Source of the DNA: Prochlorococcus marinus CUG1433
Lineage (GTDB): Bacteria > Cyanobacteriota > Cyanobacteriia > PCC-6307 > Cyanobiaceae
Direction of reading: 5' to 3'
Length of the DNA: 64,000 nt
Assembly: GCA_017644425.1 (NCBI GenBank)
Contig: JAEPLN010000001.1
Span: 1,426,001-1,490,000, forward strand
The translations under genes were made by a program, and so were the position numbers. Shown here piece by piece: positions 1 through 19,877 of this stretch (positions are counted from its first letter, which is position 1; the number at the start of each line of letters is the position of its first letter). The notes below the pieces were generated by a model. The model saw only the letters and a program-made list of their open reading frames with translations. It had not been told where the DNA came from and made no database searches.

Positions 1-2
1 CA

Positions 3-164
3 TGGAAGTTCAATAAAAGAAATAATATATTTAGTAATAAAGATAAAAAAATACATTTATCTATTAATCAATTTTATTTTTATAGTTGGACAATATCTAT
101 TGCATCAAAGAAAGAATACAAAAATCATATAGTTTGTACTAAAGAGAATGAAAAATTCTTATAA
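3..164 (+). CDS. C-terminal fragment of an unidentified protein (5' end outside the window)
   Basis: An open frame enters from the left edge and runs 53 codons to TAA at 162-164. The residue mix (aromatics, then a charged tail ending KENEKFL) looks like an ordinary protein C-terminus. A second frame is also open from base 1 to a TAG at 130-132, so the choice of frame is uncertain. It lies on the same strand as, and 136 bp before, the polysaccharide-modification genes. No family is recognisable from so short a tail. Confidence 0.35.
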   Translation, partial: WKFNKRNNIFSNKDKKIHLSINQFYFYSWTISIASKKEYKNHIVCTKENEKFL

Positions 165-300
165 TAAAAACAAATTAAAGAGAGAACTAAATTTATCTAT
201 TTATAGAATTAAAAGATTTTTTGGTATCTTTTTTGATAAATCACTAAATATTTTTTTTGATGAATTTACGATTAAATAACTAAAATTCTCTTAATAATAA

Positions 301-1215
301 ATGAAAAATATTGAAACTAGAAAAGATCATACTTATAAGGTAATTTTTTTTGGATCTGAATCGGCTGGTTTAAGATGTCTGAAATTTTTAATAAAACAAA
401 ATAATATAAAAATCAGTTTTTTAATAACTAACGAAAAAGGTATTAGTAATAAAGCATTTTTTAAAATTGCTAGAGAAAATAACATTTGCATAATAAGTAA
501 AGTTGAACTTTTAGAAAAAATTAATCAATCAATTATTATTCGTAATCAAATAGATTTTATCTTAAGTGTTTTTTCACCTTTTATAGTTGATGATTTAATT
601 CTAAATCATACAAAATATGGAGGCTATAATCTTCATCCAGGAAGACTCCCTGAATATGCAGGCTTAAATCCTACAAGCTGGTCAATTTATAATAATGAAA
701 AATATCATGAAGTCACTTTACACAAAATGAATAACATTATTGATGGTGGAGAAATAGTAGATAGTAAAAGAATTGAAATCAGTAAAGAAGAAACTGCTAT
801 CTCATTACTCATAAAGTCAACTAATGAAGGAATTACCTTGATTAAAGACTTTATTATGTTTCTCACTCAGGATAATATTGGAAACATTTCGACAAAGAAG
901 CAAGACTTAAAAAAGAGAAAATATTATACTAATACAAATCCTCTTTCTCAACCAATAGATTGGAATGAGTCAATAAATAAAATTGATAGGATTTTTAGAT
1001 CATCTTATTTTGGTATTAAGAGATCTCCATGGGGTTTCCCAAAAACATTAGTTGATGATCAAATAGTTGAGTTAAAAAATTATAAGTTTTTTAAGTGTCA
1101 ACAAAATGAAAGTATAGGTAAAGTTCTTTATATTTCGGGAAATTTAATTGAAATTGCATTTAAAAATGGAATAATTAAAGCAGAAATCGTAAATGGAGAT
1201 AATATAATCGAATGA
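301..1215 (+). CDS. Formyltransferase-family protein (sugar/amine N-formyltransferase-like)
   Basis: A 304-aa protein of the methionyl-tRNA/GAR/sugar formyltransferase fold. The family's catalytic Asn-His-Asp set is visible as N110 and H112 (in YNLHPGRLPEYAG) and D148 (in IDGGEIV). A C-terminal region from about residue 210 resembles the small C-terminal domain of the family. These enzymes transfer a formyl group from N10-formyl-tetrahydrofolate to an amine. Inside a polysaccharide island the usual substrate is a nucleotide-linked amino sugar. It overlaps the next gene by 4 bp (ATGA), which points to co-translation with the AAC(3)-like protein. It is not the housekeeping fmt gene, since the N-terminal and loop sequences diverge. 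The exact substrate is inference. Confidence 0.75.
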   Translation: MKNIETRKDHTYKVIFFGSESAGLRCLKFLIKQNNIKISFLITNEKGISNKAFFKIARENNICIISKVELLEKINQSIIIRNQIDFILSVFSPFIVDDLILNHTKYGGYNLHPGRLPEYAGLNPTSWSIYNNEKYHEVTLHKMNNIIDGGEIVDSKRIEISKEETAISLLIKSTNEGITLIKDFIMFLTQDNIGNISTKKQDLKKRKYYTNTNPLSQPIDWNESINKIDRIFRSSYFGIKRSPWGFPKTLVDDQIVELKNYKFFKCQQNESIGKVLYISGNLIEIAFKNGIIKAEIVNGDNIIE

Positions 1216-2003
1216 ATTTTAAAGATGAATTAATATCAAAATACAATGAATTTAAGCTGTCTAATTGTGAGGTAATTTATATTTACTCTGATCTAAGAGG
1301 ATTTTCTCAATATATGGACCAATTCTCAGGAAAGGATAATTTCTTAAAAACATTTATTGAACCTATTTTAGAAAGAAATATCACAGCTATTATCCCTACT
1401 TTTTCTTATACAACAAAAGGTATATTTGATACTAAAAAAACAAAAACTAGTCTTGGAGCCTTAAATAGTTGGTTTATAAATAATTCTGAAAGTGAAAGAT
1501 CAGAACATCCATTATTTTCTTATTGTTCGATAGGTCCCAAATCCAAAGAAATTGTCAATAATATTGGTAAAAGTGCATTTGGTTATGATTGTATTTTTGA
1601 AAGAATACTAAAATTAAACACAAAATTTTTACATATTGGAAGACCTTTAAATTATGGTAATACAATGATTCATTATATAGAACAATTATGCGGAGCTACA
1701 TATAGATATAATAAAAAATTTAATGTTGATGTCTACAAAAACGGTCAATATATAGGGAATAACTATTCAGCTTTTTTAAGAATTAGGAATCATAAAAAAA
1801 ACTATTATGGGTTTGATTTTAATAGAGCTTCAAAAATCTTAGAGAGCGAAAATATCGTAAAAAAATGTCAAATTTCTAGTAAATTAACTAACCTTGAATT
1901 TTATGATGCAGAAAAAACATTTAATATTCTTGTAAAAGAGTTTTATAAAAATAATATGATATTTTTAAAAGACGGAACTAAAGAACCGATCTTGGATTTA
2001 TAA
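1212..2003 (+). CDS. AAC(3)-like N-acyltransferase
   Basis: A 263-aa protein resembling the aminoglycoside 3-N-acetyltransferase (AAC(3)/YokD) family. Recognisable blocks are a conserved His in SEHPLFSYCSIG (H99) and TMIHYIEQ (H154), which match the HP...G and T-x-x-H-x-x-E signatures. The family moves an acyl group from a thioester (CoA, or in principle an acyl carrier protein) onto an amine. In surface-glycan loci, members acylate amino sugars and need have nothing to do with antibiotic resistance. It starts inside the last codons of the formyltransferase. The nearby carrier protein and adenylation enzyme suggest an acyl-ACP donor, which is inference. Confidence 0.7.
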   Translation: MNFKDELISKYNEFKLSNCEVIYIYSDLRGFSQYMDQFSGKDNFLKTFIEPILERNITAIIPTFSYTTKGIFDTKKTKTSLGALNSWFINNSESERSEHPLFSYCSIGPKSKEIVNNIGKSAFGYDCIFERILKLNTKFLHIGRPLNYGNTMIHYIEQLCGATYRYNKKFNVDVYKNGQYIGNNYSAFLRIRNHKKNYYGFDFNRASKILESENIVKKCQISSKLTNLEFYDAEKTFNILVKEFYKNNMIFLKDGTKEPILDL

Positions 2004-2043
2004 AATAAATATAAATATAATTAAAATAATAATATTTAAAAAA

Positions 2044-2451
2044 ATGGAAAAGATACATCATCTAGGAATTGTTTGTAACGATATAGAAGATGCTTATAAA
2101 GCATTTAATATACAGCCTGATGATATAAAGGAGTACTATCTAGATAAAGAACAGAAAAATGAACTTTATTTTTTTCATTTAAAAGAGAATGATCTTTGGA
2201 TGGAGTTTGTTGTGCCAATAGATGAGAATTCTACAGTCTGGAATTATGCCAAAAATAATAATTTCGGAATACATCATATTGGATTCAATTCAAATAATCT
2301 TGAAAAAGAAAAATTGCTTTCTAATAACCTAAAAGGCGTTTTTGAGTTAAAAAGTTATTTTTTAAAAATTGCATCTTTTGGTGGGAGAATAAATACTTTA
2401 TTTTTTTATTTCAGAGGTTTATTAATAGAGTATGTAAAAAAATTAGATTAA
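2044..2451 (+). CDS. VOC-family (glyoxalase/methylmalonyl-CoA epimerase-like) protein
   Basis: A 135-aa protein with two beta-alpha-beta-beta-beta repeats of the vicinal oxygen chelate fold. Candidate metal ligands lie where the family has them: H6 in IHHLGI, a Glu in WMEFV, a His in GIHHIGF and a Glu near the C-terminus in LIEYV. HHLGI together with HHIGF most resembles methylmalonyl-CoA epimerases. Such an enzyme could epimerise or isomerise an acyl thioester, which would fit the carrier-protein gene 45 bp downstream. The specific reaction cannot be read from sequence alone. Confidence 0.65.
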   Translation: MEKIHHLGIVCNDIEDAYKAFNIQPDDIKEYYLDKEQKNELYFFHLKENDLWMEFVVPIDENSTVWNYAKNNNFGIHHIGFNSNNLEKEKLLSNNLKGVFELKSYFLKIASFGGRINTLFFYFRGLLIEYVKKLD

Positions 2452-2496
2452 TCCCAAATGATATTATTAATTAAATAGATCTTACTGATTTTTAAA

Positions 2497-2754
2497 ATGG
2501 ATAAAATGATTATTAAGAATAAAATTTATAATTTTTTTATTGAAAGAGAAGGTGATGATATTTTAGATAGTATTGATAATATAGATTTTATTGATGAAGG
2601 AATTCTTGATTCTCTTGATTTTTTCTCATTAGCAGTTTTTATTGAAAAAGAATTTGGGATTAAATTAAAAATGACTGATGAAGATACATTTAAAAAAATG
2701 AGAAAAATTGAAACCTTGATAGACTTGATTTTACAATTGTCATTAAATAGTTAA
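2497..2754 (+). CDS. Acyl/peptidyl carrier protein
   Basis: An 85-aa acidic protein of carrier-protein size. The phosphopantetheine attachment motif is GILDSLDFF, with S39 the likely 4'-phosphopantetheine site. It is followed by the typical helix III region (FIEKEFGIKL). It ends 4 bp before the adenylation gene, so the two are almost certainly translated together and the adenylation enzyme probably loads it. It differs from a fatty-acid AcpP because it lacks the DSLD-T/V-E context, and it looks closer to DltC-type or stand-alone PCPs. Holo-conversion would need a PPTase encoded elsewhere. Confidence 0.85.
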   Translation: MDKMIIKNKIYNFFIEREGDDILDSIDNIDFIDEGILDSLDFFSLAVFIEKEFGIKLKMTDEDTFKKMRKIETLIDLILQLSLNS

Positions 2755-2758
2755 TTCG

Positions 2759-4270
2759 ATGTTTCGATCATCATTCTTAGAAATATTTGATAAAAATTTA
2801 AATAAAAATCCAAATAAAATTATAAGTTCAGATTTTGAACAATCACTTAATTGGAATCAATTTGCTTTTCAAGCTAATTATTATGCAAAAAAATTTGAAA
2901 GACTTAATCAGAAAATAATACCAATCATTGTAGATAGAACAGTTAAAACACCCTGCTCAATAGTTGGGTGCGTTTTAGCAAAAAAAATATTTGTACCAAT
3001 TTCTTCAGAACAGCCAATAAACAGAATAGAAAGAATATTAAATCAACTAGAAGTTGATTTTATTTTAAATTTAGAAAACCTTATGCTTGGTAATAAATAT
3101 ATATCTATCAAAGAAACAAATTTAGCAATAAATAACAATAATTTCTCGAAAAAAAGAAGTATTGAAGATTCCGAACCGCTTTATATATTATTTACTTCAG
3201 GATCTACTGGTGATCCTAAGGGGGTAAAAGTATCAGAAAGAAATTTATTAAATACAATGGTTTGGAGCCATACCTATCAAAAATGGGAAGATAATGATTT
3301 AATCGGAATTACTACAAATTTTGGGTTTGATATTTCACTTTTTGATCTTTTTTCATCTCTTTACAGTAATATTCCACATTACATAATAAGAGATCCAAAA
3401 GATCCCTTTAATTCGGGAAGAGAAATAATAAAAAATAAAATCACATCAATTTTTTCATCACCTTCCTTCTTTTCTTCACTTATCAAATCTGAAGTAATTA
3501 ATACATTGAATAAAAGTAATATGCGCCAAATTTTTAGTGGTGGAGACTTCTTCCCTCCAGATCATATAAATAAATTTAAGCAAAAATTACCTAACTTAGA
3601 TATTTATAATGTCTGGGGCCCTACAGAAACATCAATTGTTAATACTATGCATAAAATAAGCGAAAAAGATCTATTTTATGCATCCCAAGATAAAAAAGAT
3701 ATTCCAATAGGTAAATTAAATCATCCTTTAATGCCGTGTATGATTGTTGATGAAAATAGAGAAAAAAAAATTAAAAAGCCTTTTCAAAGAGGAGAAATTG
3801 TAGTTTCCGGTACTCCCGTTTCATTAGGTTATTTTAATAATAAAGGAAATCAGGATTTTTTAAGAATACAGGAGGTCAACTATTTTTATACAAATGACAT
3901 AGGATACTTTGACGAAAATCATAATTTATATATTGTTGGTAGAAAAGGATTTACAATTAAAATAAATGGATACAGGGTTAACCTTAAGGAAATAGAATCT
4001 CAAGTTATTTCTTTTCCTGAAATTCATCAAGCAATAGCATTCAATCCAAAAAAATATAAAGAGTTTATTTTTATTGCCGTGGAACTTGAAAACAAGCAAA
4101 TTAAAGATTTAAAATTTGGAGAATTACGATCATTTTTACGCAAAAAAATTCCAATATATATGCTTCCTAAAAAACTAATAATTCTAAATGAATTACCTAA
4201 AAATATAAATGGAAAAATTGATAGAAAAGCTACAGAAATTAGGGCTTTAGAAGAATTTGAAAATTCATGA
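2759..4270 (+). CDS. Stand-alone amino-acid adenylation enzyme (DltA/NRPS A-domain-like)
   Basis: A 503-aa AMP-forming ligase with all the core motifs: A3 TSGSTG (146-151) with lysine 154, A4 FDISLFDLF (D191), A5 NVWGPTETS (about 284-292), A7 TNDIG, A8 GRKGFTIKINGYRV (394-407), and A10 NGKIDRK with catalytic K486. Asp at the A4 position is what NRPS A domains and DltA use to hold an alpha-amino group, so an amino-acid substrate is more likely than a fatty acid. The total length fits a free-standing enzyme (DltA is about 500 aa). It sits between a carrier protein (4 bp upstream) and a hotdog protein (4-bp overlap downstream). The inferred role is to activate an amino or hydroxy acid and load it on the ACP. 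Confidence 0.8.
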   Translation: MFRSSFLEIFDKNLNKNPNKIISSDFEQSLNWNQFAFQANYYAKKFERLNQKIIPIIVDRTVKTPCSIVGCVLAKKIFVPISSEQPINRIERILNQLEVDFILNLENLMLGNKYISIKETNLAINNNNFSKKRSIEDSEPLYILFTSGSTGDPKGVKVSERNLLNTMVWSHTYQKWEDNDLIGITTNFGFDISLFDLFSSLYSNIPHYIIRDPKDPFNSGREIIKNKITSIFSSPSFFSSLIKSEVINTLNKSNMRQIFSGGDFFPPDHINKFKQKLPNLDIYNVWGPTETSIVNTMHKISEKDLFYASQDKKDIPIGKLNHPLMPCMIVDENREKKIKKPFQRGEIVVSGTPVSLGYFNNKGNQDFLRIQEVNYFYTNDIGYFDENHNLYIVGRKGFTIKINGYRVNLKEIESQVISFPEIHQAIAFNPKKYKEFIFIAVELENKQIKDLKFGELRSFLRKKIPIYMLPKKLIILNELPKNINGKIDRKATEIRALEEFENS

Positions 4271-4671
4271 AAAGAAGTATTGAGATTTTAAAAGGAAAAG
4301 TAAATAGTGATCAATTAGATGAATATGATCATTTAGCCATGCCAAACTATTTAAAGATAATCAATAATGGCATAATGATTTTATCAAATGATATATTTAA
4401 AAATACTTTATCTAATAATAACAAAAGGCTAGTAGCAGCAAGATGTAACTTAGAGTTTAAAAATGAATTACTTCTTAATAATGAATGGATATTAAATGTG
4501 AAATTTATTGATTTTGATATCAAATATTTAACTCTTGATTTTAAAATCAGATCAAAATCTCAGGTAAAAGCAAAAGCAATAATGGTACTTGTCGCTTTTG
4601 ATTTGACTTCAAGAAAATCAGTTACCCTCTCTTCAGAGGAGATATATATCCTAAAACAATTATTGAATTAA
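4267..4671 (+). CDS. Hotdog-fold thioesterase-like protein (4HBT/YbgC type)
   Basis: A 134-aa protein with the signature D-E-Y-D-H-L-A-M-P-N-Y near residues 18-28, equivalent to the Asp...His...Asn...Tyr active-site helix of 4-hydroxybenzoyl-CoA thioesterase-type enzymes. Alternating hydrophobic strands follow, as expected for a hotdog domain. The start overlaps the adenylation gene by 4 bp (ATGA), so the two are translationally coupled. It could hydrolyse mis-loaded or product acyl-carrier thioesters, or it could be a non-hydrolytic acyl-ACP binding protein. It ends the cassette, and a 284-bp AT-rich gap follows. Confidence 0.65.
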   Translation: MKRSIEILKGKVNSDQLDEYDHLAMPNYLKIINNGIMILSNDIFKNTLSNNNKRLVAARCNLEFKNELLLNNEWILNVKFIDFDIKYLTLDFKIRSKSQVKAKAIMVLVAFDLTSRKSVTLSSEEIYILKQLLN

Positions 4672-5733: not shown

Positions 5734-6087
5734 ATGTCAAAAAAGAGATTCCTAATTGTTGGTTCGATTAATACCTTAATTACAAATTCATTTCTCCAAT
5801 TATTGTTATTAGTAACAAACATTTCATTAGCTACTTTTGTTTCCCAGCTAATTAGCATGTTTGTTGGGTTTTATCTTCATGGTAAGTTTGTATTCGGTAA
5901 TTCTCAATTTTCTTTTATTAAATTTTTTAAGTATTTCTTATTCGCTTTTTTACTATGGATACTAAATTGGAGCGGGATTTTTGTAATTTCAAGTTATGGA
6001 ATAAATAAGAATCTTTCTGCATTAATATTAATACCATTTCTCGCCTCTATTTCTTATTTGATTCAAAAGAATAAAATTTTTGTTTAA
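5734..6087 (+). CDS. GtrA-like membrane protein (putative lipid-linked sugar flippase)
   Basis: A 117-aa protein with four hydrophobic segments and the GtrA pattern: an N-terminal FLIVGSINTLIT, and HGKFVF after the second helix. GtrA-family proteins are thought to flip undecaprenyl-phosphate-linked sugars. It starts 13 bp after the nucleosidase gene and is followed by a large polytopic membrane protein and a GtrB-like GT2. That completes the A/B/type-specific set found in Gtr side-chain modification systems. The fold assignment is firm; the sugar is unknown. Confidence 0.8.
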   Translation: MSKKRFLIVGSINTLITNSFLQLLLLVTNISLATFVSQLISMFVGFYLHGKFVFGNSQFSFIKFFKYFLFAFLLWILNWSGIFVISSYGINKNLSALILIPFLASISYLIQKNKIFV

Positions 6088-6147
6088 ATTTTACTTTAAG
6101 TTATACTTAATTCTAGTATATTATTTGTTAAATAATAATTGATATTT

Positions 6148-7935
6148 ATGATTAATATAATATTATTATCAATAGTTTTTTTATTTATTTTTTCTAATAA
6201 TTTTAAAATAGTTGAAAATAATAATGAAATTTTAATATCTAATTATATTACATCTTTCACATTATCAATATCAATAATAGGTTCAATTTCTTTAGGATTA
6301 ATATTTATTAATTCTGTACAATTTCCAATTATTATAATATCATTATTGATATTTTTTTCTTATTTCTTAATCTTTAATATAAACTTAAAAAATATAATTA
6401 ATTTTTTTATAAGTTGGAAGATTTTACTTAATACTTTCTTATTAAAAAATAGTTTTAATAAATTTTTAGTATTTTTAGTATTCTATCTTTATTTATTGTC
6501 ATTTGGTCCAATTAATCACCCTGATGCGACCACAACATATGTAGGTTATCCATACCAATTTTTTATAAAAGGTAAACATTTTATTGATGGAGGTTTATTC
6601 CAAGGCATTTTAGGTATTTCTGATTTTGCGAATTTAGCCTTCTTTCAAGAAAAATCAATTTGGTTAATAAGAATGATTCAGGCAATTCCGATTTTTATGA
6701 TCGTATCCATTTTTATTAAAAGAGGGAAAAGTAAATTATTTATATTATCCTTTTTAACTACCCCCGTATTTATACAATGGTTAACTATTGGAAAATTTTT
6801 ATTATTTCCAGACTTGGCAGTAACCATTACCTATCTTGTATGGGATAAATATAGAACTAAGAATAATCTAATTAACCTTTTAATTTTAATAGTTTTATCA
6901 ATATCATTTAAAATATCAAGCCTTATTATTTGTATCCCTATTTTTTTTCATATATTATATGATTTGGTTTCTACAAAAAAATTAAAGTCTCTTTTTCTAA
7001 TAGAAAATAGCTTGAGATATCTCTTTTTATTTTTAGCAATAGGAGTATTAGCTGAAATACTTTTATATAGATTTTATGTAACTGGTAATTTTTTATATCC
7101 TATATTTAATAGTTTTCTTATTCCAGATAATCAACAAATGATTGACTTTGAGAATGATTTAAAACAATATATATATTCTGATGGATTACCTTTTATAACT
7201 ACAAATGTTAATTTATTAGGAATGATTTTAGGTCCTGCTAATACATTATTAATAATATTTTTACCGTTTTTAAGTCTGCTAGCAAAAAATGGAAATAAAT
7301 TTATTAAAAGTAATTTTGTAGCAATAACTCAGATTATCTTACTTTTAATTTTATCAAATGGTAGGGCAGATTATTTTGCCTCACCATTGGTCATTTTACT
7401 TATGAAGAATAGATTATTTAATTTAAATAATTACACTATAAAAAAAATACCAAAAGTAAAATTTATTTATTTTAAAAAAATATTTTTATTAATATTATGG
7501 CTTCAAATTTTAATATTTTCATGTATTACATTACTCTCAATTTATCAATCAATATTTGGGATATTTAATTATCAATCTTCAATGAATAGATTTGCATATA
7601 ATTATGATTTAACTGCAACTTTAAATAAGGTTTCTAAAGAGCCAATTATAAATTTTTATGATAGAACTCCTCTGTTTTTTCTAGAAAAAGATTACGTACA
7701 TGAAGATGTATTTAAAAAATGCCTTTACTACAATGATAAAGAATTTGGAAAAGATTCCATTGAAAATTGCTTTAAAAATTTCAAGGCAAAGTCAATTATT
7801 ATAAATAGTGAAGCTTTAAAAAATAATAAAAGTTTCATTTGCAAAAAATATTCTACAAATTATACGTCTAGGAATCCTTTTAAATTCAGGAAAAGAGATT
7901 TCGATTTATGCGATATCAATAATTTAGAATATTAA
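6148..7935 (+). CDS. Large polytopic membrane protein (putative GT-C-like glycosyltransferase)
   Basis: About 595 aa from the ATG at 6148 (a TTG at 6139 in the same frame is less likely). There are at least ten hydrophobic segments and a soluble C-terminal region of about 100 aa. The first sizeable outside loop holds HPDATTTYVGYPYQF, an acidic loop of the type found after TM1 of GT-C glycosyltransferases and LIC_10190-type membrane proteins. It sits between a GtrA-like flippase and a GtrB-like GT2, the position of the serotype-specific Gtr enzyme. It probably transfers a lipid-linked sugar to the surface glycan on the periplasmic side. No closer assignment is possible from sequence alone. Confidence 0.55.
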   Translation: MINIILLSIVFLFIFSNNFKIVENNNEILISNYITSFTLSISIIGSISLGLIFINSVQFPIIIISLLIFFSYFLIFNINLKNIINFFISWKILLNTFLLKNSFNKFLVFLVFYLYLLSFGPINHPDATTTYVGYPYQFFIKGKHFIDGGLFQGILGISDFANLAFFQEKSIWLIRMIQAIPIFMIVSIFIKRGKSKLFILSFLTTPVFIQWLTIGKFLLFPDLAVTITYLVWDKYRTKNNLINLLILIVLSISFKISSLIICIPIFFHILYDLVSTKKLKSLFLIENSLRYLFLFLAIGVLAEILLYRFYVTGNFLYPIFNSFLIPDNQQMIDFENDLKQYIYSDGLPFITTNVNLLGMILGPANTLLIIFLPFLSLLAKNGNKFIKSNFVAITQIILLLILSNGRADYFASPLVILLMKNRLFNLNNYTIKKIPKVKFIYFKKIFLLILWLQILIFSCITLLSIYQSIFGIFNYQSSMNRFAYNYDLTATLNKVSKEPIINFYDRTPLFFLEKDYVHEDVFKKCLYYNDKEFGKDSIENCFKNFKAKSIIINSEALKNNKSFICKKYSTNYTSRNPFKFRKRDFDLCDINNLEY

Positions 7936-7987
7936 TTATTCATGAAAAATGATTTAATTAAATAAGTAATATTTGTTGTTAATTAAT

Positions 7988-8950
7988 ATGAATAAAATTA
8001 TTGCCGTAATGCCTTGTTATAGGAGTTCTAAAATAGCGCCTAAGATTGCTAAAGATGTACTAGGTTATGTTGATAGATTAGTTTGTGTTGATGATGATTG
8101 CCCAGAAAATACAGGAAAATCTATCGAAAGTTCCTTAAAAAGTGATCATTTGGATTTGATTTATCATGATAGGAATAAAGGTATTGGCGGAGCAATGAAA
8201 ACTGGAATTAAATATGCTTTAACTTTAAATCCTGAAATAATAATTAAAATAGACTCTGATGGACAAATGAATCCTGCTTTAATTCCACAATTATTAGAGC
8301 CACTTCTTAATGGATCATCTGAATTTACCAAAGGCAATAGATTTACGAACCCTAAATTTATTACTAACATGCCTATCGTGAGAATTACTGGAAATATTGG
8401 TTTGGGATTTCTGACTAAATTATCTACAGGGTATTGGGAATTATTTGATCCAACCAATGGATTTTTGGCAATAAGAAGTAATGTTTTAAGAGGAATATCT
8501 CTTGAAAAGATTGATAATGGTTATTTCTTTGAAACCGATCTACTTTTTAGATGTGCTCTTAGTAATGTCTTAGTTAGTGAGATACCGATGGATGCGTTTT
8601 ATGAGGATGAAAAATCAAGTTTAAGCCCGTTTAAAGAGTTTTTCAGGTTCACTTGGAAGCACATAAATATTTTCTTGAAAAGATTAACTTATCAATATTT
8701 TTTATTAGATTTTAATCCTGGAAGTCTTAGTTTATGTTTAGCAATTATTTTTGGATTAATTGCACTGTTTGTTGGTTTAATAAGTCGTTTTTTTTATAGT
8801 AGTTTAGATGTTGAAACTCCTCTGGGAGGTCAAATTTTGTTTTTAGCTACTTCTTTAATTTCTAATCAGTTATTTATAAGTTTTATATATTATGATGCAT
8901 CACAAAAACCTTTGTTGAGGAGACTTAAATACTTAAAAAATAGTTTATAA
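7988..8950 (+). CDS. GT2 glycosyltransferase with membrane tail (GtrB/DPM1-like)
   Basis: About 320 aa starting at the ATG at 7988; the earlier in-frame TTG codons at 7973 and 7976 would only add LLIN. The GT-A fold shows an N-terminal strand, VDDDCPENTG, and the metal-binding DSDGQ at 89-93. Two hydrophobic helices at the C-terminus (about residues 240-295) match the polyprenyl-phosphate sugar synthases GtrB and DPM1. It should attach a sugar from UDP- or GDP-sugar to undecaprenyl phosphate at the cytoplasmic face, for flipping by the GtrA-like protein. The asparagine synthase-like gene starts 3 bp after it. Confidence 0.8.
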   Translation: MNKIIAVMPCYRSSKIAPKIAKDVLGYVDRLVCVDDDCPENTGKSIESSLKSDHLDLIYHDRNKGIGGAMKTGIKYALTLNPEIIIKIDSDGQMNPALIPQLLEPLLNGSSEFTKGNRFTNPKFITNMPIVRITGNIGLGFLTKLSTGYWELFDPTNGFLAIRSNVLRGISLEKIDNGYFFETDLLFRCALSNVLVSEIPMDAFYEDEKSSLSPFKEFFRFTWKHINIFLKRLTYQYFLLDFNPGSLSLCLAIIFGLIALFVGLISRFFYSSLDVETPLGGQILFLATSLISNQLFISFIYYDASQKPLLRRLKYLKNSL

Positions 8951-8952
8951 AA

Positions 8953-10941
8953 ATGTGTGGGATTACTGGCTTTTCATTAGGAAATATCTTTTTGGATTCT
9001 GAAATAATTTTTCAGGAACAACTTGTAACTTTTTTGAAAAATTCCTCTCAGTTAATAAAACATAGAGGACCAGATGACGAAGGCTCATATATAGATAATA
9101 AAAATGGAATTGGATTAGCACATAGACGATTATCCATCTTAGATACTTCACGAAATGGTCGACAACCTATGACTCACAAAAATGGAAAAATTACAATTGT
9201 TTTTAACGGTGAAATTTATAATTTTTTAGAGTTAAAAACAAAACTTGAAAGCCATAAAAAATTAAACTGGTCCAGCAATACTGATACTGAAGTATTGTTA
9301 AATATGTATGAATACTATATGAATTCTAATTTAGGTTTAGATAAATTCTTTCGGTCTTTAAACGGTATTTTTTCCATAGCTATATGGGATGGTTTAAGAA
9401 AGGAGCTTGTTATAGCTAGGGATTTCTTCGGAGTTAAGCCTCTTTATTTCTATAAAACAAAAAATGCATTTTTTTTTGCAAGTGAAATTAAAGCTCTTCT
9501 TCCATTCCTAAATAAGTTTAAAGATAAGTCAATTATTGAAAAACAATTTGGAGATTTGGATCCAAAAGCTATTGAAAGATATCTTACTTATTTATGGTGC
9601 CCAGGGAGTAGAACTCCATCAAAAATAATTAAAAAAATAGAACCTGGAAGTTTCTTAAAAATAAGTAATGGGGATATTGAAGAAAAAAAATGTTGGTATA
9701 AATTGCCATCATTGAGTTTTACCTATAAAAAAAATAAATATCTGACAAAGACAAATGCTATAGATGGCTTAAAAAAGAATTTAAAAGAGGCCGTAAGGCG
9801 TCAGATGATATCAGATGTACCTTTAGGTGCATTTCTTTCAGGAGGATTAGATTCTAGTAGTATTGTCGCTTTTGCTAAAGAATTAAATCCTAAAATAAAT
9901 TGTTTTACCATCGATCATGGGAAAGGAAATAAAAAAAGCGATCTTTTTTATGCAGAAAAGGTCGCAAAACATTTAGATTTAAATTTAACAACTATAAAAA
10001 TAGATCCACATAAATTTACAAGTTCCCTAGAGGAAATGGTCTGGCAACTTGATGAACCCATTGCAGATCCAGCTTCTTTAAATATTAAGTTTATTTGTGA
10101 ATACGCAAGGTCTCAAGGTATAAAAGTACTCTTATCTGGAACTGGTGGGGATGATATTTTTTCGGGATATAGAAGACACATAGCTTTAAATAATAATCAT
10201 TTTCTCGATTGGATCCCTATTAATACTTTGAATTTTATGAATAAATTAATTTGCAAATTACCAGCTAATCTAGAGTCTTTTAGAAGATTAAGAAAACTAA
10301 TTTCAAATTCTACTTTTAAGGGAAATGAAAGGATTTTTAATTACTTTAGATGGATAGAAAGAAAAGATTTAAATCAAATATTATCTGATGAGTTCAAACA
10401 CGAGATAAGAAATTCATGTCCAGAGAAACCTTTCTTAAATTACTTAAAAAATATATCTAAATTTTCTTCTGATTTGGAACGTTTATTAGCTTTAGAGCAA
10501 AGGTTTTTCCTAGGAGATCATAACCTAAATTATACTGATAAAATGTCAATGGTTTCTGGTGTGGAAGTTAGAGTCCCATTCTTGGATAAGGATTTATGTG
10601 AATTTGCAGTACACATTCCGCCTAAATTAAAAATTAAAGGTTTCCAGAGTAAATGGATTTTTAAAAAAGCTATGGAAGAATATTTGCCAAAAGATGTAAT
10701 ATATAGATCAAAAATTGGATTTGGGATGCCAATACGGGATTGGTTTAATAACGAATTAAGAGATTGGCTTAACGATATTCTTTCAAAAGATAAACTTAAA
10801 AGAAGAGGAATATTTAATCCATCTTCAGTAGAAAAATTAATCAACCTAAATGCTAAAGGAAAGGTTGATGCCTCCTACACACTCTTATCAATAGTTTGTG
10901 TTGAAATTTGGTGTCAGAGATTTCTAGATAATAATATCTAA
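8953..10941 (+). CDS. Glutamine-dependent amidotransferase, asparagine synthase (AsnB) family
   Basis: A 662-aa protein with a class II glutaminase domain (Cys2 nucleophile in MCGITGF, HRGPDDEG at about 38-44, FNGEIYN) followed by the ATP-pyrophosphatase domain with SGGLDSS at 296-302. Family enzymes use glutamine ammonia and ATP to amidate a carboxylate. Inside polysaccharide islands, homologues such as WbpS amidate uronic acids or other sugars; free asparagine synthesis is the alternative. The WecB/WecC-type uronic acid genes in the same island make a uronamide plausible, which is inference. Confidence 0.85.
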   Translation: MCGITGFSLGNIFLDSEIIFQEQLVTFLKNSSQLIKHRGPDDEGSYIDNKNGIGLAHRRLSILDTSRNGRQPMTHKNGKITIVFNGEIYNFLELKTKLESHKKLNWSSNTDTEVLLNMYEYYMNSNLGLDKFFRSLNGIFSIAIWDGLRKELVIARDFFGVKPLYFYKTKNAFFFASEIKALLPFLNKFKDKSIIEKQFGDLDPKAIERYLTYLWCPGSRTPSKIIKKIEPGSFLKISNGDIEEKKCWYKLPSLSFTYKKNKYLTKTNAIDGLKKNLKEAVRRQMISDVPLGAFLSGGLDSSSIVAFAKELNPKINCFTIDHGKGNKKSDLFYAEKVAKHLDLNLTTIKIDPHKFTSSLEEMVWQLDEPIADPASLNIKFICEYARSQGIKVLLSGTGGDDIFSGYRRHIALNNNHFLDWIPINTLNFMNKLICKLPANLESFRRLRKLISNSTFKGNERIFNYFRWIERKDLNQILSDEFKHEIRNSCPEKPFLNYLKNISKFSSDLERLLALEQRFFLGDHNLNYTDKMSMVSGVEVRVPFLDKDLCEFAVHIPPKLKIKGFQSKWIFKKAMEEYLPKDVIYRSKIGFGMPIRDWFNNELRDWLNDILSKDKLKRRGIFNPSSVEKLINLNAKGKVDASYTLLSIVCVEIWCQRFLDNNI

Positions 10942-10982
10942 TAAAATGTTAGAGTTTAATAATAAAGCTTTTCAATTTGTTG

Positions 10983-13118
10983 ATGAAGCAAATTTTTCAA
11001 TATCTAAATACTGGCGAAACTAAAATAATTGAATTACCCCCTCCTCGATTAAAAAAAGGAGAAGTTCTCATACGTTCGAAATTTTCTCTTGTTTCTTCTG
11101 GAACTGAGCGAATGCTTGTGAATTTTGGGAAATCTAATTTGATTTCAAAAGCAAAGACTCAACCAGAAAAAGTTGCTGAAGTTATTGCAAAAATGAAATC
11201 TGAAGGGGTTTTTAATACTATAGAAGCAGTTAGTAATAAATTAGATAAGCCTCTCCCATTGGGATATTGTAATGCAGGAGTTGTTGTTGAAGTTGGAGAA
11301 GATGTTTCTTCTTTAAAAGTTGGAGATAGAGTTGTTTCAAATGGCTATCATGCAGAATTGGTAAGTGTTTCTGAAAACTTATGCGCTTTAATTCCCGATG
11401 ATGTAAGTTTTGAGGACGCTGCATTTACGGTTATTGCGGCTGTTGGTTTACAGGGTATAAGACTGTTAAAGCCAACTTTGGGCGAAACTATAGCCGTAAG
11501 TGGTTTAGGAATTATTGGCTTAATTACTTGTCAATTACTCATGGCTAATGGCTGTAAGGTATTGGGTATAGATCCTGATCAATCAAAATGCGATTTAGCT
11601 AATTTGTTTGGAGTTGAAACTTTTTGCATATCAAATAAAAGAAACCCTACTAATTGGTTTCTCAGCAAAACTAATGGAGTGGGTGTTGACGGTTTCTTAG
11701 TAACTGCGAGTACGTCTTCTAGTGATCCTATATATATTGCCGCAAATTCATCTAGAAAAAAAGGTAGGATAATTTTAGTAGGAGTTACTGGCCTAGACTT
11801 AAGTAGAGAATTATTTTATAAAAAGGAATTAACTTTCCAAGTAAGTTGTTCTTATGGACCAGGAAGATATGATAAAAATTATGAGGAAGACAATAATGAT
11901 TATCCAATTGGATATGTAAGATGGACTGAAAAAAGAAATTTCGAAGCAATTTTAAATTTACTAGATTCTGGGGTTTTAGATTTTAAAAAACTAATAGAGA
12001 AAATATTTGATTTTGAAGACGCCTTGTCTGCTTATAAATTACTTATGGAAAAGTCAGGCAGCCTAGGAATATTGATTTCTTACAAAAGAGAACCTGAATT
12101 AAATAATTACAAGTTAAAAATTAACTCTGATCCAAAATTCAATCTTCCCCCTGCAGAACCTGTAATTGGTGTAATTGGTTCAGGTAATTATTCTTCGAGA
12201 ACTTTATTACCAACTTTTAAAAAATTTGGTGCTTATTTCCAAATAATTTGTTCTTTAAAAGGTGCAAGTGCTATGCACTATGGGAGTAAATTTTCATTTA
12301 AAGAAGTAACTACAAATGAAGAAGATGTTTTCTTAAATGAAAAATGTAACACAGTAATAATATCAACTAGACATGATACTCATGCTGATCTCATAAAAAA
12401 GGCTCTAATGGCTGGTAAAAATGTATTTGTTGAGAAACCTCTATGCCTAAATAAATATGAGTTAAAAGGTATAAGAGATACTTTCAAAAATTCAAACAAA
12501 TCAAATAAAAGTAGTAATAAAAATTCTCCTCTATTAATGATTGGCTATAACAGGCGATTTTCGCCATTAATTATAAAACTAAAAAAAATGTTAAATAATT
12601 TAAATGCTCCTAAGGCCTTTATCTATACATGTAATGCGGGTTATTTAGATGCAGACCATTGGTTAAATGATCCTAAGGTAGGTGGGGGGAGATTTATAGG
12701 AGAATGTTGTCATTTCATTGATTTGCTTTACTTCTTGAGTGAAGAAAATATAAATGATATAAAAATATCTGCTCCTTTAAGAAATAAAAATACTCCTGAA
12801 ACATTTACAGTTAATCTAAAATTTGATAAGGGTTCTATTGGTTCAATTCATTATTTTTCAAATGGATCTAAATTACTCCCAAAAGAGAGAATTGAAGTTT
12901 TTTCCGATAAAACGGTTTTTAGATTGGAAAATTTCAAAAAACTAAAAGCTTGGGGATATAAAGGATTTTCTTCACAAAGCCTCATCTCTCAGGATAAGGG
13001 CCAAAAAAATTGCGCTAGTGCATTTTTAAATGCAATAAGAAAAGGAAAATCCTCGCCTATATCACTTGAGGAAATATTTGAAGTGCAAGAATTAATACTT
13101 AATGCTAAGTTTTCTTAG
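10983..13118 (+). CDS. Bi-domain oxidoreductase: MDR alcohol dehydrogenase fused to Gfo/Idh/MocA dehydrogenase
   Basis: About 711 aa from the ATG at 10983; two TTG codons just before it (10977, 10980) are less likely starts. Residues 1 to about 370 form a medium-chain dehydrogenase (LPLGYCNAGVVVEVG, KVGDRVVSNG, SGLGIIGL NAD-binding loop). Residues from about 390 form a Gfo/Idh/MocA oxidoreductase with GVIGSGNYSS and EKPLCLNK, whose lysine is the usual catalytic residue of that family. The fused architecture recurs in capsule and exopolysaccharide loci, often beside a heparinase II/III protein, as here. It probably oxidises and reduces a sugar nucleotide or uronic acid. Confidence 0.8.
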   Translation: MKQIFQYLNTGETKIIELPPPRLKKGEVLIRSKFSLVSSGTERMLVNFGKSNLISKAKTQPEKVAEVIAKMKSEGVFNTIEAVSNKLDKPLPLGYCNAGVVVEVGEDVSSLKVGDRVVSNGYHAELVSVSENLCALIPDDVSFEDAAFTVIAAVGLQGIRLLKPTLGETIAVSGLGIIGLITCQLLMANGCKVLGIDPDQSKCDLANLFGVETFCISNKRNPTNWFLSKTNGVGVDGFLVTASTSSSDPIYIAANSSRKKGRIILVGVTGLDLSRELFYKKELTFQVSCSYGPGRYDKNYEEDNNDYPIGYVRWTEKRNFEAILNLLDSGVLDFKKLIEKIFDFEDALSAYKLLMEKSGSLGILISYKREPELNNYKLKINSDPKFNLPPAEPVIGVIGSGNYSSRTLLPTFKKFGAYFQIICSLKGASAMHYGSKFSFKEVTTNEEDVFLNEKCNTVIISTRHDTHADLIKKALMAGKNVFVEKPLCLNKYELKGIRDTFKNSNKSNKSSNKNSPLLMIGYNRRFSPLIIKLKKMLNNLNAPKAFIYTCNAGYLDADHWLNDPKVGGGRFIGECCHFIDLLYFLSEENINDIKISAPLRNKNTPETFTVNLKFDKGSIGSIHYFSNGSKLLPKERIEVFSDKTVFRLENFKKLKAWGYKGFSSQSLISQDKGQKNCASAFLNAIRKGKSSPISLEEIFEVQELILNAKFS

Positions 13119-13149
13119 CTATATAATTTTTATACTAGATCATTATCTT

Positions 13150-14082
13150 TTAGTTCAAACTAACAGCATATTTTTTGTTTAGATAAAGGCCTAATAAAAT
13201 TATTATGAATAAAGAGAGACTTAATAGAATAATATTAGAAGTAAGGTAAACAAGCCCCAAGAAAAAAGTACTAAAAATATAAATTGAAGATACTTTTGAA
13301 TGAGAAAAACCAGCAGAAACTAATCTTTGGTAGAGGTGAAGTCTGTGAGGTTGTAAGATATTTTGCTTTTTTCTAATCCTTATTAATATGCAGCTTAAAG
13401 CATCTAAAAATAATGGGGAACATAATATTAAAGAATTCAATATCGATATAAAATTATTTTGAGCGAGAATCAAAGTTGAAAGATAGGATCCCAAAAAAAG
13501 GCTTCCAGAATCACCCATAAAAACTTTTGATGGTTCCCAATTAAAAAATAAAAATCCAATTAATGTCCCAATTATTGGTAAAAGATAATGTATTTCAATA
13601 TTCATAAATGAAAAAATTACAATCATACATCCACAAACTAAACCATCAATTCCGTCCATGAAGTTCATGAAATTAATCATGGAAGTTCCAATTACTAGTA
13701 ACAAAATAAATATTAAAATAAAATATTGAAATGAAACTATTTTTGCTAAGACCCCAAATCCATTTATATACGAAAAAACAAGAAAACTTGATATTGTTAG
13801 TATCTGTGCTGCGAGACGGATACGTTTAGAGATAGAGAATTTATCATCTATCAATCCAATAATTGAAATTGGTATAGAAAAGAAAGGGAGAAAGAAACTT
13901 TGGTAGCTTGCATAAATTATATAGATAAAAATAAATAAAATTCCTCCACTAGATGCTTTTTTTTCTTTGTGCATTCCTCTTAAAGTGGGATTTGCAGGGA
14001 TGATTTTTTTTAGAGTTGGAATTGATATCTTTAAAAAGATAAAAGTAATTGAGATTGTAAAAAATAGATGTAATAAATTCAT
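13150..14082 (-). CDS. Undecaprenyl-phosphate sugar-1-phosphate transferase (WecA/MraY family)
   Basis: A 310-aa polytopic protein of the polyprenyl-phosphate N-acetylhexosamine-1-phosphate transferase family. Signature blocks are the DDK segment after TM3, NFMNFMDGIDGL, KVFMGDSGS and the QPHRLHLYQR loop. This enzyme starts glycan assembly by loading a HexNAc-1-P on undecaprenyl phosphate at the inner membrane. It lies opposite in strand to the rest of the glycan genes and is divergent from the UDP-ManNAc dehydrogenase gene across 212 bp. It is too short and too different to be the MraY of peptidoglycan synthesis. Confidence 0.85.
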   Translation of the reverse strand: MNLLHLFFTISITFIFLKISIPTLKKIIPANPTLRGMHKEKKASSGGILFIFIYIIYASYQSFFLPFFSIPISIIGLIDDKFSISKRIRLAAQILTISSFLVFSYINGFGVLAKIVSFQYFILIFILLLVIGTSMINFMNFMDGIDGLVCGCMIVIFSFMNIEIHYLLPIIGTLIGFLFFNWEPSKVFMGDSGSLFLGSYLSTLILAQNNFISILNSLILCSPLFLDALSCILIRIRKKQNILQPHRLHLYQRLVSAGFSHSKVSSIYIFSTFFLGLVYLTSNIILLSLSLFIIILLGLYLNKKYAVSLN

Positions 14083-14294
14083 GTATTAGTATTTGTGATT
14101 TATTTTTTCTATATTCTTATTACATTCAAATAAGTTTTTTTATATTGAGAATTTTATTGAAAAAGTGATACTTAATTCTAATACAAATTGACTATACCAA
14201 ATTGTAAAGACTTAAAGTTTAAAAATTAACTTAATGTCTAATTTTTTCTTAAGATGGTGTATTCTGTATCAAATAATCCTGTCAATATTTAGAT

Positions 14295-15503
14295 ATGAAT
14301 AGATGTTGCGTAGTAGGTCTTGGATATATTGGTTTACCCACTGCGGCTTTATTTTCCAAAAAAGGTTTTAATGTTCTAGGTGTAGATATAAACTTAGATA
14401 TTGTTAATAAAGTAAATAAAGGTATTTCACCTATACAGGAACCATCTCTGGAAGATGAGATTCAAAATTCTGTAAAATCAGGCAATCTGAAAGCATCTTC
14501 AAAACCTAACTATGCCGACATATTTGTTATAGCTGTACCAACTCCTATAAAGTCGGGATCTAAGATTCCACAGCCAGATTTAGAGTATGTAGAAACTGCC
14601 ATTGAAAGTATTATTCCTTTTTTGAAAAATGGTAATTCAATAATCATAGAATCAACCTCTCCAGTTGGAACAACAAAAGATTTATTTTCTTTAATTATTG
14701 AGAAGACAGATTTGAATGAGAATCAGATTTTTATGGCATATTGTCCCGAAAGAGTCCTCCCTGGGAGAATAATGATTGAAATTAGTACAAATAAAAGACT
14801 AATTGGGGGAATAAATCATGAGTCATCTCTTCAAATAAAAGAAATTTATAAAAAAATTTGCGACTCAGAAATATATATCACTGATTCTGAAACAGCAGAA
14901 CTTGTTAAATTGGCAGAGAATTCTTATCGTGATTTAAATATCGCTTTTGCAAATGAACTATCAATAATTTCTAGTAAATTAGACATTGATGTGAATAAAG
15001 TTATTAATTTTACTAATCATCATCCAAGGGTTAATATTTTAAGGCCCAGCTGTGGTGTAGGAGGACATTGTATAGCATTGGATCCTTGGTTTCTGGTTTC
15101 ACAATTTCCAGAAGATACAAACATAATACATATGTCTAGAAAGGTAAATATTTTTAAAACACAATGGACTATATCAGAGATAAGTAGGTTCATAGAAAAA
15201 ATAAAAAATGAATCTAAAAATGATCCTAAAATTGGTATTTTTGGCTTAACATTTAAAGCGAATGTAAACGACTTAAGAGAATCTCCAGCTTTAAAAATTG
15301 CAAATGAATTGTCCAAAGAAAATCACACAATTTTCTGTGATCCTTATGTTTCTAATTGCAGTGATTTTGTAAATCATTCAATTGAGGAAACATTATCTAA
15401 TTCAGATATCTTGATTTTCCTTGTTGCTCACAGCAAATTTAAAAAAATTAATATTAATGAAAAAAAATATTTGGATTTTTGTGGCCTTTTTGATGAAATT
15501 TAA
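14295..15503 (+). CDS. wecC: UDP-N-acetyl-D-mannosamine dehydrogenase-like
   Basis: A 402-aa nucleotide-sugar dehydrogenase. NAD is bound by GLGYIGLP (8-15). The middle domain has AYCPERVLPG and the conserved Lys in LVKLAENSYRD, and the catalytic cysteine is C259 in CGVGGHCIALDPWFL. The GGHC-x-x-x-DPWFL form marks UDP-ManNAc/UDP-GalNAc dehydrogenases rather than UDP-glucose dehydrogenases. It oxidises C6 twice to give the uronic acid. With the WecB-type epimerase at 18651 it would supply UDP-ManNAcA. Its C-terminus overlaps the heparinase-like gene. Confidence 0.85.
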   Translation: MNRCCVVGLGYIGLPTAALFSKKGFNVLGVDINLDIVNKVNKGISPIQEPSLEDEIQNSVKSGNLKASSKPNYADIFVIAVPTPIKSGSKIPQPDLEYVETAIESIIPFLKNGNSIIIESTSPVGTTKDLFSLIIEKTDLNENQIFMAYCPERVLPGRIMIEISTNKRLIGGINHESSLQIKEIYKKICDSEIYITDSETAELVKLAENSYRDLNIAFANELSIISSKLDIDVNKVINFTNHHPRVNILRPSCGVGGHCIALDPWFLVSQFPEDTNIIHMSRKVNIFKTQWTISEISRFIEKIKNESKNDPKIGIFGLTFKANVNDLRESPALKIANELSKENHTIFCDPYVSNCSDFVNHSIEETLSNSDILIFLVAHSKFKKININEKKYLDFCGLFDEI

Positions 15504-17343
15504 AAATATTCTAATATTATATTTTTTAACACTTAAAGACTTTACCTTTATTAATGTTTTTAAAAGAATTAAATATGAATTAAAAATCTATTTATTCAAA
15601 ATAAATTTTTTATCTTTTATTAGAAAATATCGTAGTAATTACAATAAAATAAAATGGAATGAAAAAACTTTATTAATTAACACAAAAAAATATAATCAAT
15701 TTGAGAAAAATTTTTCCGAAGTTGAATTTATTGAGATTGAGTTTTTGAATAAAATAGAAAAATTAAGTTTACCTATTAATTGGAATATTACTACAGTTTC
15801 AAGATTATGGAGATTTAATTTACACTATTTTTCTGGGTTAAAAAAATGCATAAATTATTCATTAGAGAAAGGTTTATCAAATGTTATTTTGCAACAAAAT
15901 TTGTATTTAATAGATTCATGGATTAATTTTCATTTATTACAACACGGAGACGGCTGGCATAGTTATACATTGTCATTAAGAATTCGAAATTGGATATGGC
16001 TTTTTAGGTTTTTCCCTAATTTAATTACAGATAAAATTAAAGAAGTTTTGTGGATACAAATTAATTGGCTTTATGAAAATAGAGAGTATCATCTCGGTGG
16101 AAATCATTTATTGGAAAATTTAATAACTTTGATTTTAGGTTCTTTACAATTTAAGGGATCTTTACCTGATTTGATATTTTCTGAATGCATGTCTGAACTG
16201 GAGGATCAGTTGCAAAAACAAATTCTTTCTGATGGTGGACATGAAGAGAGAAGTTGTAGTTATCATTTGATAATTTTACAAAATTTAGTAGAGTTGGGTT
16301 TCGTAATACAAAATATTAAAAAAATTAGACCAGTTTGGTTGCTTAAATCTATAAGTTTAATGAGTAAATGGGCTTATAAAGTCAAATTAAATAATAATAA
16401 TTATCCAAGATTTAATGACTCCATTTATTCAAAAGAAATTGATATTGAGAAAATTATTAAACTCAGTTTGTCTTATATAGACCAAAATATTTTTGTATCT
16501 AAATCAGATCTTTTCTATTTTTACTTATCTGAAGATACTTTCAATAATAATAAAAATAAATACCTTAAATTGGAAGTGCCTTCTCTAGAAAATTTCAGTT
16601 TTAGATTACCTAAAGTTTTAGATCTAGAAGAAACTGGTTGGAGTATATTGAGGCCAAATAAATCATGGGAAATCGTTTTTAAATCAGGAGAGTCTGGACC
16701 AAAGAACTTGTTAGGACATAGTCACTCTGATTTATATACTTTTGATATTTTTTATGATGGAAAATTATTAATTGGCGAAACAGGGACAAGTCAATATCAA
16801 TTTTCTAGTATTAGACAATATGAACGTTCCGCCGATTCCCATAATGTAATGCAATTTGCTCTTTCAAAATATTTGGAAATTGAAAAAATTAAGGAATGGC
16901 ATCAACCTCTTGAAGTTTGGAATTCATTCAGAGTAGCAAGAAAACCAAAAATTATTGATAGATCAATAGGGGTTGAGTTGGATAATACTTTATCGGTTAG
17001 AGGTTTATATTCTCCCTTCCAAAAGTACATAAAAGATATTGAAAGAAAAATGCAATTTAAAGTTTTAAAAGATAATAGTCTAGAGGTAATTATTCAAGAC
17101 AATGTTTTTGCTATTTATAATATCTTTTGGAAGTTTAATTTACATTTTGCTCCTGATTTTAATAGTTCTAATCTTCAGATTGAAAAATTAGAAAATTCCA
17201 ATTTCATAACAAAAAAGCTTGTGCATTCTTGGACCGCCTTTGAATTTGGTAAAAGGATTCCAAGCAAATCACTTTTAATTTTTGGAAATTTTGAAAAAGG
17301 TCATAATACTAATGTTTTGAAATTAATTTTATCCCCTTCATGA
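15493..17343 (+). CDS. Heparinase II/III-family protein (alginate lyase-like)
   Basis: About 616 aa from the ATG at 15493, which overlaps the dehydrogenase stop by 11 bp; the open frame extends upstream to a TTG at 15421 inside that gene. The N-terminal alpha/alpha toroid carries WRFNLHYFSGL and GGNHLLENL. The C-terminal beta-sandwich carries GHSHSDLYTFDI and the tyrosine-rich QYERSADSHNVMQ region, where the family has its catalytic His and Tyr. No cleavable signal peptide is evident. Such proteins in biosynthetic loci may edit or depolymerise the uronic-acid glycan. The ATGA overlap with the next glycosyltransferase couples them. Confidence 0.8.
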   Translation: MKFKNILILYFLTLKDFTFINVFKRIKYELKIYLFKINFLSFIRKYRSNYNKIKWNEKTLLINTKKYNQFEKNFSEVEFIEIEFLNKIEKLSLPINWNITTVSRLWRFNLHYFSGLKKCINYSLEKGLSNVILQQNLYLIDSWINFHLLQHGDGWHSYTLSLRIRNWIWLFRFFPNLITDKIKEVLWIQINWLYENREYHLGGNHLLENLITLILGSLQFKGSLPDLIFSECMSELEDQLQKQILSDGGHEERSCSYHLIILQNLVELGFVIQNIKKIRPVWLLKSISLMSKWAYKVKLNNNNYPRFNDSIYSKEIDIEKIIKLSLSYIDQNIFVSKSDLFYFYLSEDTFNNNKNKYLKLEVPSLENFSFRLPKVLDLEETGWSILRPNKSWEIVFKSGESGPKNLLGHSHSDLYTFDIFYDGKLLIGETGTSQYQFSSIRQYERSADSHNVMQFALSKYLEIEKIKEWHQPLEVWNSFRVARKPKIIDRSIGVELDNTLSVRGLYSPFQKYIKDIERKMQFKVLKDNSLEVIIQDNVFAIYNIFWKFNLHFAPDFNSSNLQIEKLENSNFITKKLVHSWTAFEFGKRIPSKSLLIFGNFEKGHNTNVLKLILSPS

Positions 17344-18593: not shown

Positions 18594-18650
18594 AGTGCCT
18601 TTTCAAGTTCACGTTATGATAAATAATCTAAATATAAAAATACCTAAATA

Positions 18651-19769: not shown

Positions 19770-19877
19770 TCGTAGAAATATATATTTTCTAAAATTCCAA
19801 CTTAATTTTTAAGTATCCTACTAGATCTGATATGATCACAAAATGAACAGGAAGTTTATTTAAATTGTTGTCATATT

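Follow-up and report, generated by a model that had tools for sequence, protein, structure and literature searches.

The window examined here is a stretch of 64,000 nucleotides from Prochlorococcus marinus CUG1433 (contig JAEPLN010000001.1, positions 1,426,001 to 1,490,000; G000:C1:1426001-1490000, G000 being the 1.70-Mb source genome), and it begins inside a gene cassette that lies in an O-antigen region. On balance, we favor the reading that this cassette builds an acyl group on a dedicated acyl carrier protein (ACP) and attaches it to the amine of an O-antigen sugar, most likely pseudaminic acid. The cassette also encodes an Sfp-type phosphopantetheinyl transferase (PPTase), which appears now to be the sole carrier-protein-activating enzyme left in the cell, the original housekeeping gene having decayed.

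Near its start, the plus strand of the window holds six open reading frames (ORFs) that encode, in order, an ArnA/Fmt-like formyltransferase, an AAC(3)-fold N-acyltransferase, a VOC-superfamily protein, an ACP, a stand-alone adenylation enzyme and a hotdog thioesterase, with 4-bp overlaps at two junctions and gaps of 4-45 bp at the remaining ones (Table 1). All six proteins exceed their Pfam gathering scores, and these scores and the ORF coordinates bear out the gene order and close spacing described in an initial annotation of this DNA. That annotation took the cassette to consist of these six genes; all six are real, but the set is incomplete, having missed an upstream PPTase, methyltransferase and oxygenase as well as a group of pseudaminic-acid and DUF4910 genes. 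The methyltransferase, PhyH oxygenase and PPTase genes were found in the 20 kb upstream, read as L015; the window starts within the PPTase gene and the cassette ~2.5 kb before the window. A 475-aa protein encoded at the 5' end of the cassette has no match in Pfam or NCBIfam.

We propose that the AAC(3)-like protein is an ACP-dependent transfer enzyme. Both His154 and Glu157 are present, and His154 is invariant in 33 relatives. A phmmer search against the PDB gave no match, and the family fold was established by fold comparison instead: the AlphaFold model (pLDDT 90) superimposes with a TM score of ~0.7 on AAC(3)-IVa, BA2930 and FrbF, with Foldseek values of E 2e-14 and TM 0.71 for AAC(3)-IVa. 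Against the NCBIfam models for aminoglycoside-resistance AAC(3) enzymes the protein scores 40.1 bits, below the cut-off of 270. The histidine of the HSS motif is missing in five of the eight ACP-linked cyanobacterial copies and in none of the 13 copies for which no ACP partner was recorded, most of the latter judged from only 1.5 kb of flanking sequence. A tie between loss of this motif and ACP linkage is suggestive only, because AAC(3) proteins fused to HAD-IIIC domains retain it.

The proposed carrier-protein chemistry is supported by the recurrence of AAC(3)-ACP pairs in other genomes. Few members of this cyanobacterial family have an AAC(3)-like gene (12 of 400 genomes), and in eight of the 12 an ACP gene lies no more than two genes away (L017, L018, L021, L046, L048, L049, L050 and the window); a home-made ACP profile detected no ACP in nine core-region controls. 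A ninth locus, L019, has activating-enzyme and FabZ-like genes in the region. The partners vary, comprising an adenylation enzyme in G153, an acyl ligase in G841, G233 and G169, and an FkbH-type HAD-IIIC protein in G103, with ACP as the sole AAC(3) partner within the stretch read in G371 and G209. In L048, from another genus, the order is AAC(3), ACP, activating enzyme, an intervening gene and VOC, with DUF4910 nearby; the set of AAC(3), ACP, activating enzyme and VOC is recorded for G233. In distant Cyanobacteriota, AAC(3) and DUF4910 are fused in single proteins (once in G511 and twice in G701), and AAC(3), VOC and FkbH-like genes are consecutive in G645. Plasmid AAC(3) genes are either fused to HAD-IIIC, as in Rahnella and Maritalea, or inside pse clusters with DUF4910, the Maritalea fusion lying beside pseB, DUF4910 and a NeuB-family synthase gene. 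These varied partners and fusions point to a modular unit in which an acyl loader and a carrier are combined with AAC(3), alone or together with DUF4910, and in some cases with tailoring enzymes. The initial annotation had proposed a neighborhood comparison for its six genes, and the outcome is mixed: the exact set has no second instance in the genomes searched, but AAC(3) with ACP, sometimes with an activating enzyme and VOC, does recur. Its proposal that a surface amino sugar is N-acylated by an AAC(3)-like enzyme supplied through carrier-protein chemistry is strengthened by these pairs and by the O-antigen location. More broadly, the findings suggest that many environmental "aminoglycoside acetyltransferase" annotations may be ACP-dependent sugar acyltransferases.

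Two side observations concern these related loci. The AAC(3)-like protein of G841 (L046:7644-9290) has ~270 extra C-terminal residues, of unassigned family, and a second PPTase gene lies ~2 kb away. A second cassette type in the genus (L016:9233-13143, in G011) consists of genes for an adenylation enzyme, an SDR protein, an ACP and a formyltransferase, followed by hexapeptide and WbqC-like genes; its adenylation pocket reads D-N-F-Y-F-G-F-C-M, and it contains no AAC(3) gene.

The candidate acceptor is suggested by the surroundings. PseC and PseI pass NCBIfam curated cut-offs (514.5 bits against 423.5 and 480.3 bits against 340.25, respectively) and DUF4910 scores 272 bits, all three being encoded ~7-13 kb upstream of the cassette. 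DUF4910 and a nonulosonic acid synthase thus share one region with an ACP and an AAC(3)-like transferase that lie ~11 kb off on the other strand.

The remaining enzymes retain the residues expected of active proteins or show kinships that bear on their roles. Ser39 of the ACP, in a DSL motif, and Asp191 and the A10 Lys486 of the adenylation enzyme are present, as the initial annotation had stated. Asp191 corresponds to GrsA Asp235, and since this residue is kept an alpha-amino acid is the expected substrate. Aligned to a GrsA segment at 27% identity, the pocket reads D-I-F-F-F-G-V-I-V plus Lys486; with low confidence, the rest of its lining resembles aliphatic, Ile-like codes. Relatives of this enzyme are few: a pattern scan of 84,980 genomes found only two distant ones (25% and 23%), only two other genomes of the 151 in the genus gave matches at E<=1e-20 (28-29% identity), and tblastn against plasmids returned mostly unrelated nonribosomal peptide synthetase (NRPS) genes. 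The formyltransferase has the triad N110/H112/D148; its nearest solved structures are ArnA and sugar formyltransferases, yet it also matches the LgrA formylation domain (1.6e-7), so its target could be either a sugar amine or the amine of an aminoacyl-ACP. Four metal ligands (H6/E54/H78/E129) are conserved in the VOC protein, and the proteins of solved structure closest to it are methylmalonyl-CoA epimerases, which makes epimerization of the alpha carbon of an ACP thioester a reasonable guess. The hotdog protein, which has a weak YbaW match, probably edits misloaded ACP.

From gene content, protein families, catalytic residues, genomic context, AAC(3)-ACP recurrence and AAC(3)-DUF4910 fusions, we infer a set of reactions, their order, the amino acid, the acceptor and the alternative formylation targets. 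The recurrence and the fusions in particular lead us to read the cassette as a maker of aminoacyl-ACP coupled to an acyl swap on a pseudaminic-acid amine. The cassette PPTase would place phosphopantetheine on Ser39 of the ACP, and the adenylation enzyme would then load an alpha-amino acid, probably a bulky aliphatic one (Ile/Leu/Val-like). The loaded amino acid may undergo hydroxylation by PhyH, methylation, alpha-carbon epimerization by the VOC protein and/or N-formylation, in some order. DUF4910 would take an acetyl group off pseudaminic acid, the AAC(3)-like enzyme would re-acylate the freed amine from the ACP, and the hotdog protein would release wrongly loaded ACP. By joining AAC(3)-fold enzymes, DUF4910 and carrier-protein chemistry, the cassette makes the role of poorly understood glycan genes directly testable.

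Several points weigh against this reading. AAC(3) enzymes normally take acetyl-CoA, and we infer the use of an ACP thioester by this AAC(3)-like family; the link to the acceptor is contextual, ~11 kb separating the AAC(3) gene from the DUF4910 and pseudaminic-acid genes, which are on the opposite strand; the pocket code depends on the GrsA ruler and 27% identity; and the exact gene set is absent elsewhere in the data searched. An alternative that we regard as possible but unlikely keeps the chemistry and changes the acceptor, the aminoacyl group going onto another O-antigen nucleoside diphosphate-amino sugar and the formyltransferase capping either the sugar or the amino acid. The kinship of the formyltransferase to ArnA and sugar formyltransferases agrees with this, as do the sugar genes of the window itself and the cassette of G011, where adenylation enzyme, SDR, ACP and formyltransferase genes stand by hexapeptide acyltransferase, WbqC-like and RmlA/RmlB-type genes with no AAC(3) or DUF4910 in the 20 kb read. 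The AAC(3)-DUF4910 fusions and the repeated occurrence of DUF4910 near AAC(3), however, favor nonulosonic acids.

We consider it improbable that the genes form a dissociated NRPS-like pathway for a small secreted metabolite or an amino-acid-derived lipid, placed in the O-antigen region by chance. The formyltransferase, adenylation enzyme and ACP do resemble a split LgrA-type initiation module, and PhyH and methyltransferases are common tailoring enzymes, but no condensation domain was found among the cassette genes scanned, in agreement with the initial annotation, glycan genes flank the cassette on both sides, and the recurrent AAC(3)-ACP pairs sit in glycan loci too. Least credible is the dlt-like D-alanylation from different parts with which the initial annotation had framed the cassette: DltA and DltC are the best NCBIfam matches of the adenylation enzyme and ACP, but their scores (254 bits against a cut-off of 476, and 27.6 against 68) fall far short, no MBOAT/DltB-type gene, as that annotation had itself remarked, and no DltD gene was found among the neighbors scanned, and bulky residues line a pocket that differs from what we take to be the small pocket for D-Ala. 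Both the NRPS and the dlt-like readings were rejected on these grounds.

The preferred reading, an aminoacyl-ACP-dependent sugar acylation, includes a PPTase, and the genomic history of this enzyme extends beyond the cassette. The cassette protein has the motifs GVDME and WCxxESxxK and is 42-44% identical to the core PPTase of the genus; in a tree it falls in a clade with the native copies (support 100/99). It matches NCBIfam AusB/HetI PPTase models weakly (HetI, 23 vs 370 bits), and PF01648 finds nothing in the whole genome, the native PPTase of the genus belonging to the same divergent type. Across the genus, the native gene is flanked by a peroxiredoxin gene on one side and a rarA-like gene on the other. 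In CUG1433 both neighbors are intact and the gene between them is a pseudogene, disrupted by numerous stops and frameshifts as well as a deletion (G000:C1:826489-827083; L051:6489-7080), leaving the cassette copy as the sole intact PPTase gene found in the genome.

A survey of 266 genomes of the genus indicated that this situation is repeated. Extra, divergent PPTases were found in 20 genomes in which the status of the native gene could be read, and this gene was broken in 11 (G000, G025, G063, G106, G138, G829, G860, G881, G918, G931 and G824) and intact in nine. The break in G824 is a single frameshift; the nine other cases besides G000 are unambiguous. About 192 genomes had a full-length native match and no detected extra copy, and no genome in the survey combined native loss with the lack of a detectable extra copy. 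G313 and G111 lack both the PPTase and the neighboring rarA gene, and rarA runs into a contig end in G148, so the missing PPTase is probably an assembly gap in these three. Fisher's exact test of extra PPTase against native decay gave 2e-13, for genomes that are related and of which the 192 were judged by match scores; a tree of the two flanking genes, itself poorly resolved, calls for at least eight state changes. Catalytic motifs are kept in the extra copies, the one in G860 being split by an apparent frameshift. An ACP gene lies within 10 kb in 13 of 21 extra-PPTase loci, many of them on short contigs, often by genes for ketoacyl-ACP synthase III, SDR, FkbH or an adenylating enzyme. Each genome with a broken native gene carries another PPTase, usually within a glycan acyl cassette. 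In G918, two PPTase genes of the same length and match score stand in opposite orientation on one 9.6-kb contig (L102:1519-2124, 7493-8098) with NeuB pieces between them; this pairing could be an assembly inversion artefact.

A PPTase is essential for fatty-acid synthesis. On the simplest reading of the survey, glycan acyl cassettes brought with them PPTases that came to activate the fatty-acid ACP in place of the native enzyme, whose gene would then have decayed. We think it likely that cassettes with their own PPTase become hard to lose, that the core gene decayed independently several times after their arrival, and that O-antigen islands, which are highly variable and under phage selection, have in this way come to house an enzyme of fatty-acid synthesis. 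In a streamlined genus one would not expect an indispensable housekeeping enzyme to be replaced repeatedly by copies that move together with surface-glycan genes the cell can do without. This replacement could help explain the persistence of these islands; searches of the open-access literature turned up no account of a replaced PPTase in Prochlorococcus.

The GC content of the cassette is 24.8%, below the 30.8% of the last third of the window, the 31.8% of a core region and the ~31% of the genome outside islands, which is in line with recent import. A gene for a methylthioadenosine/S-adenosylhomocysteine (MTA/SAH) nucleosidase follows on the same strand 284 bp downstream; its membership in the cassette is uncertain, and it may perhaps clear SAH or MTA produced by the upstream methyltransferase. 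A small ORF of ~44 codons, counted by eye (window 148-282), overlaps the end of the PPTase gene, and we claim no significance for it.

Table 1. Features of the cassette, its surroundings and related fusion proteins (numbers without prefix are window positions).
Feature	Position	Strand	Remarks
PseC, aldo/keto reductase, cytidylyltransferase-like, SDR, DUF4910, PseI genes	further upstream	opposite to cassette	
475-aa protein	L015:14834-16261	cassette strand	5' end of cassette; followed in order by class I methyltransferase, PhyH-type dioxygenase, Sfp-type PPTase
Sfp-type PPTase, 223 aa	L015:18493-19164; 3' end at window 1..164	+	begins 507 bp before window
ArnA/Fmt-like formyltransferase, 304 aa	301..1215	+	Formyl_trans_N, 45.3 bits, 1.1e-11
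AAC(3)-fold N-acyltransferase, 263 aa	1212..2003	+	Antibiotic_NAT (PF02522), 64.6 bits vs 25, 1.3e-17
VOC-superfamily protein, methylmalonyl-CoA epimerase-like, 135 aa	2044..2451	+	Glyoxalase_4, 29.1 bits
Acyl/peptidyl carrier protein (ACP), 85 aa	2497..2754	+	PP-binding, 23.2 bits, cut-off 20.8
Stand-alone amino-acid adenylation enzyme, 503 aa	2759..4270	+	AMP-binding, 151.6 bits; AMP-binding_C, 33.1 bits
4HBT-type hotdog thioesterase, 134 aa	4267..4671	+	4HBT_2, 33.6 bits, 6.1e-8
MTA/SAH nucleosidase, 254 aa	4956..5720	+	NCBIfam NF004079, 195 bits, cut-off 169
O-antigen context	5734..21845	+	GtrA, membrane protein, GT2, AsnB-type amidotransferase, sugar dehydrogenases, glycosyltransferases, UDP-GlcNAc 2-epimerase, Polysacc_synt_2 dehydratase
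O-antigen ligase/polymerase family gene (Wzy_C)	22168-23490		end of downstream O-antigen genes
tRNA-Arg	23575		downstream of Wzy_C gene
AAC(3)+DUF4910 fusion proteins	L138:894-3008; L139:1372-3432; L147:1351-3423		two genomes

The initial annotation knew of no description of such a system in picocyanobacteria; published precedents for related loci exist (PMC4000134, PMC3068675). In Campylobacter, the DUF4910 protein Cj1295 is required to swap the C5 acetyl of pseudaminic acid for a dimethylglyceroyl group (PMC3068675), and a 2014 analysis of DUF4910 neighborhoods, which in Clostridium include ACP, glyoxalase, aminoacyl ligase and AAC(3)+HAD genes, proposed transacylation to an amino sugar (PMC4000134). 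A close parallel in gene content, C. acetobutylicum CA_C2186-2199, shares a NeuB-family synthase, DUF4910, a cytidylyltransferase, glyoxalase/VOC, ACP, an AAC(3)-like "aminosugar N-acetyltransferase" and an amino-acid ligase, but its ligase is of the ATP-grasp type and its AAC(3)-like protein is fused to HAD-IIIC (PMC4000134), whereas the Prochlorococcus cassette has a stand-alone adenylation enzyme, its own PPTase, a formyltransferase, PhyH and a hotdog protein. Enterobacterial flagellin glycosylation islands also combine ACP, acyl ligases, LuxC/LuxE, FabG and formyl- and methyltransferases, and the section of that report consulted here describes neither an AAC(3)/adenylation-enzyme/VOC set nor a PPTase (PMC4875605). 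The dlt operon for D-Ala-teichoic acid shares an adenylation enzyme and a carrier protein; in the cassette, by contrast, no DltB or DltD was found nearby, transfer would be of the AAC(3) type, and the Dlt models score below cut-off. The LgrA initiation module of linear gramicidin (F-A-PCP, ending in a peptidyl carrier protein) unites the formyltransferase, adenylation and carrier functions that the cassette divides among separate proteins, without a condensation domain and with a formyltransferase nearer to ArnA. C. jejuni Cj1293-Cj1297 shares the pseudaminic-acid genes, DUF4910 (Cj1295), an N-acetyltransferase (Cj1296/7) and the Cj1295-dependent exchange of the C5 N-acyl group; there the product is a phase-variable glyceroyl group on flagellin (PMC3068675), whereas the cassette is predicted to place an aminoacyl group on O-antigen. 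We propose by analogy that an acyl exchange like that of Campylobacter, drawing instead on an ACP-borne amino acid, may occur in Prochlorococcus, and the AAC(3)-ACP cassette is best seen as a further form of the ACP-dependent sugar-acyl cassettes linked to nonulosonic acids.

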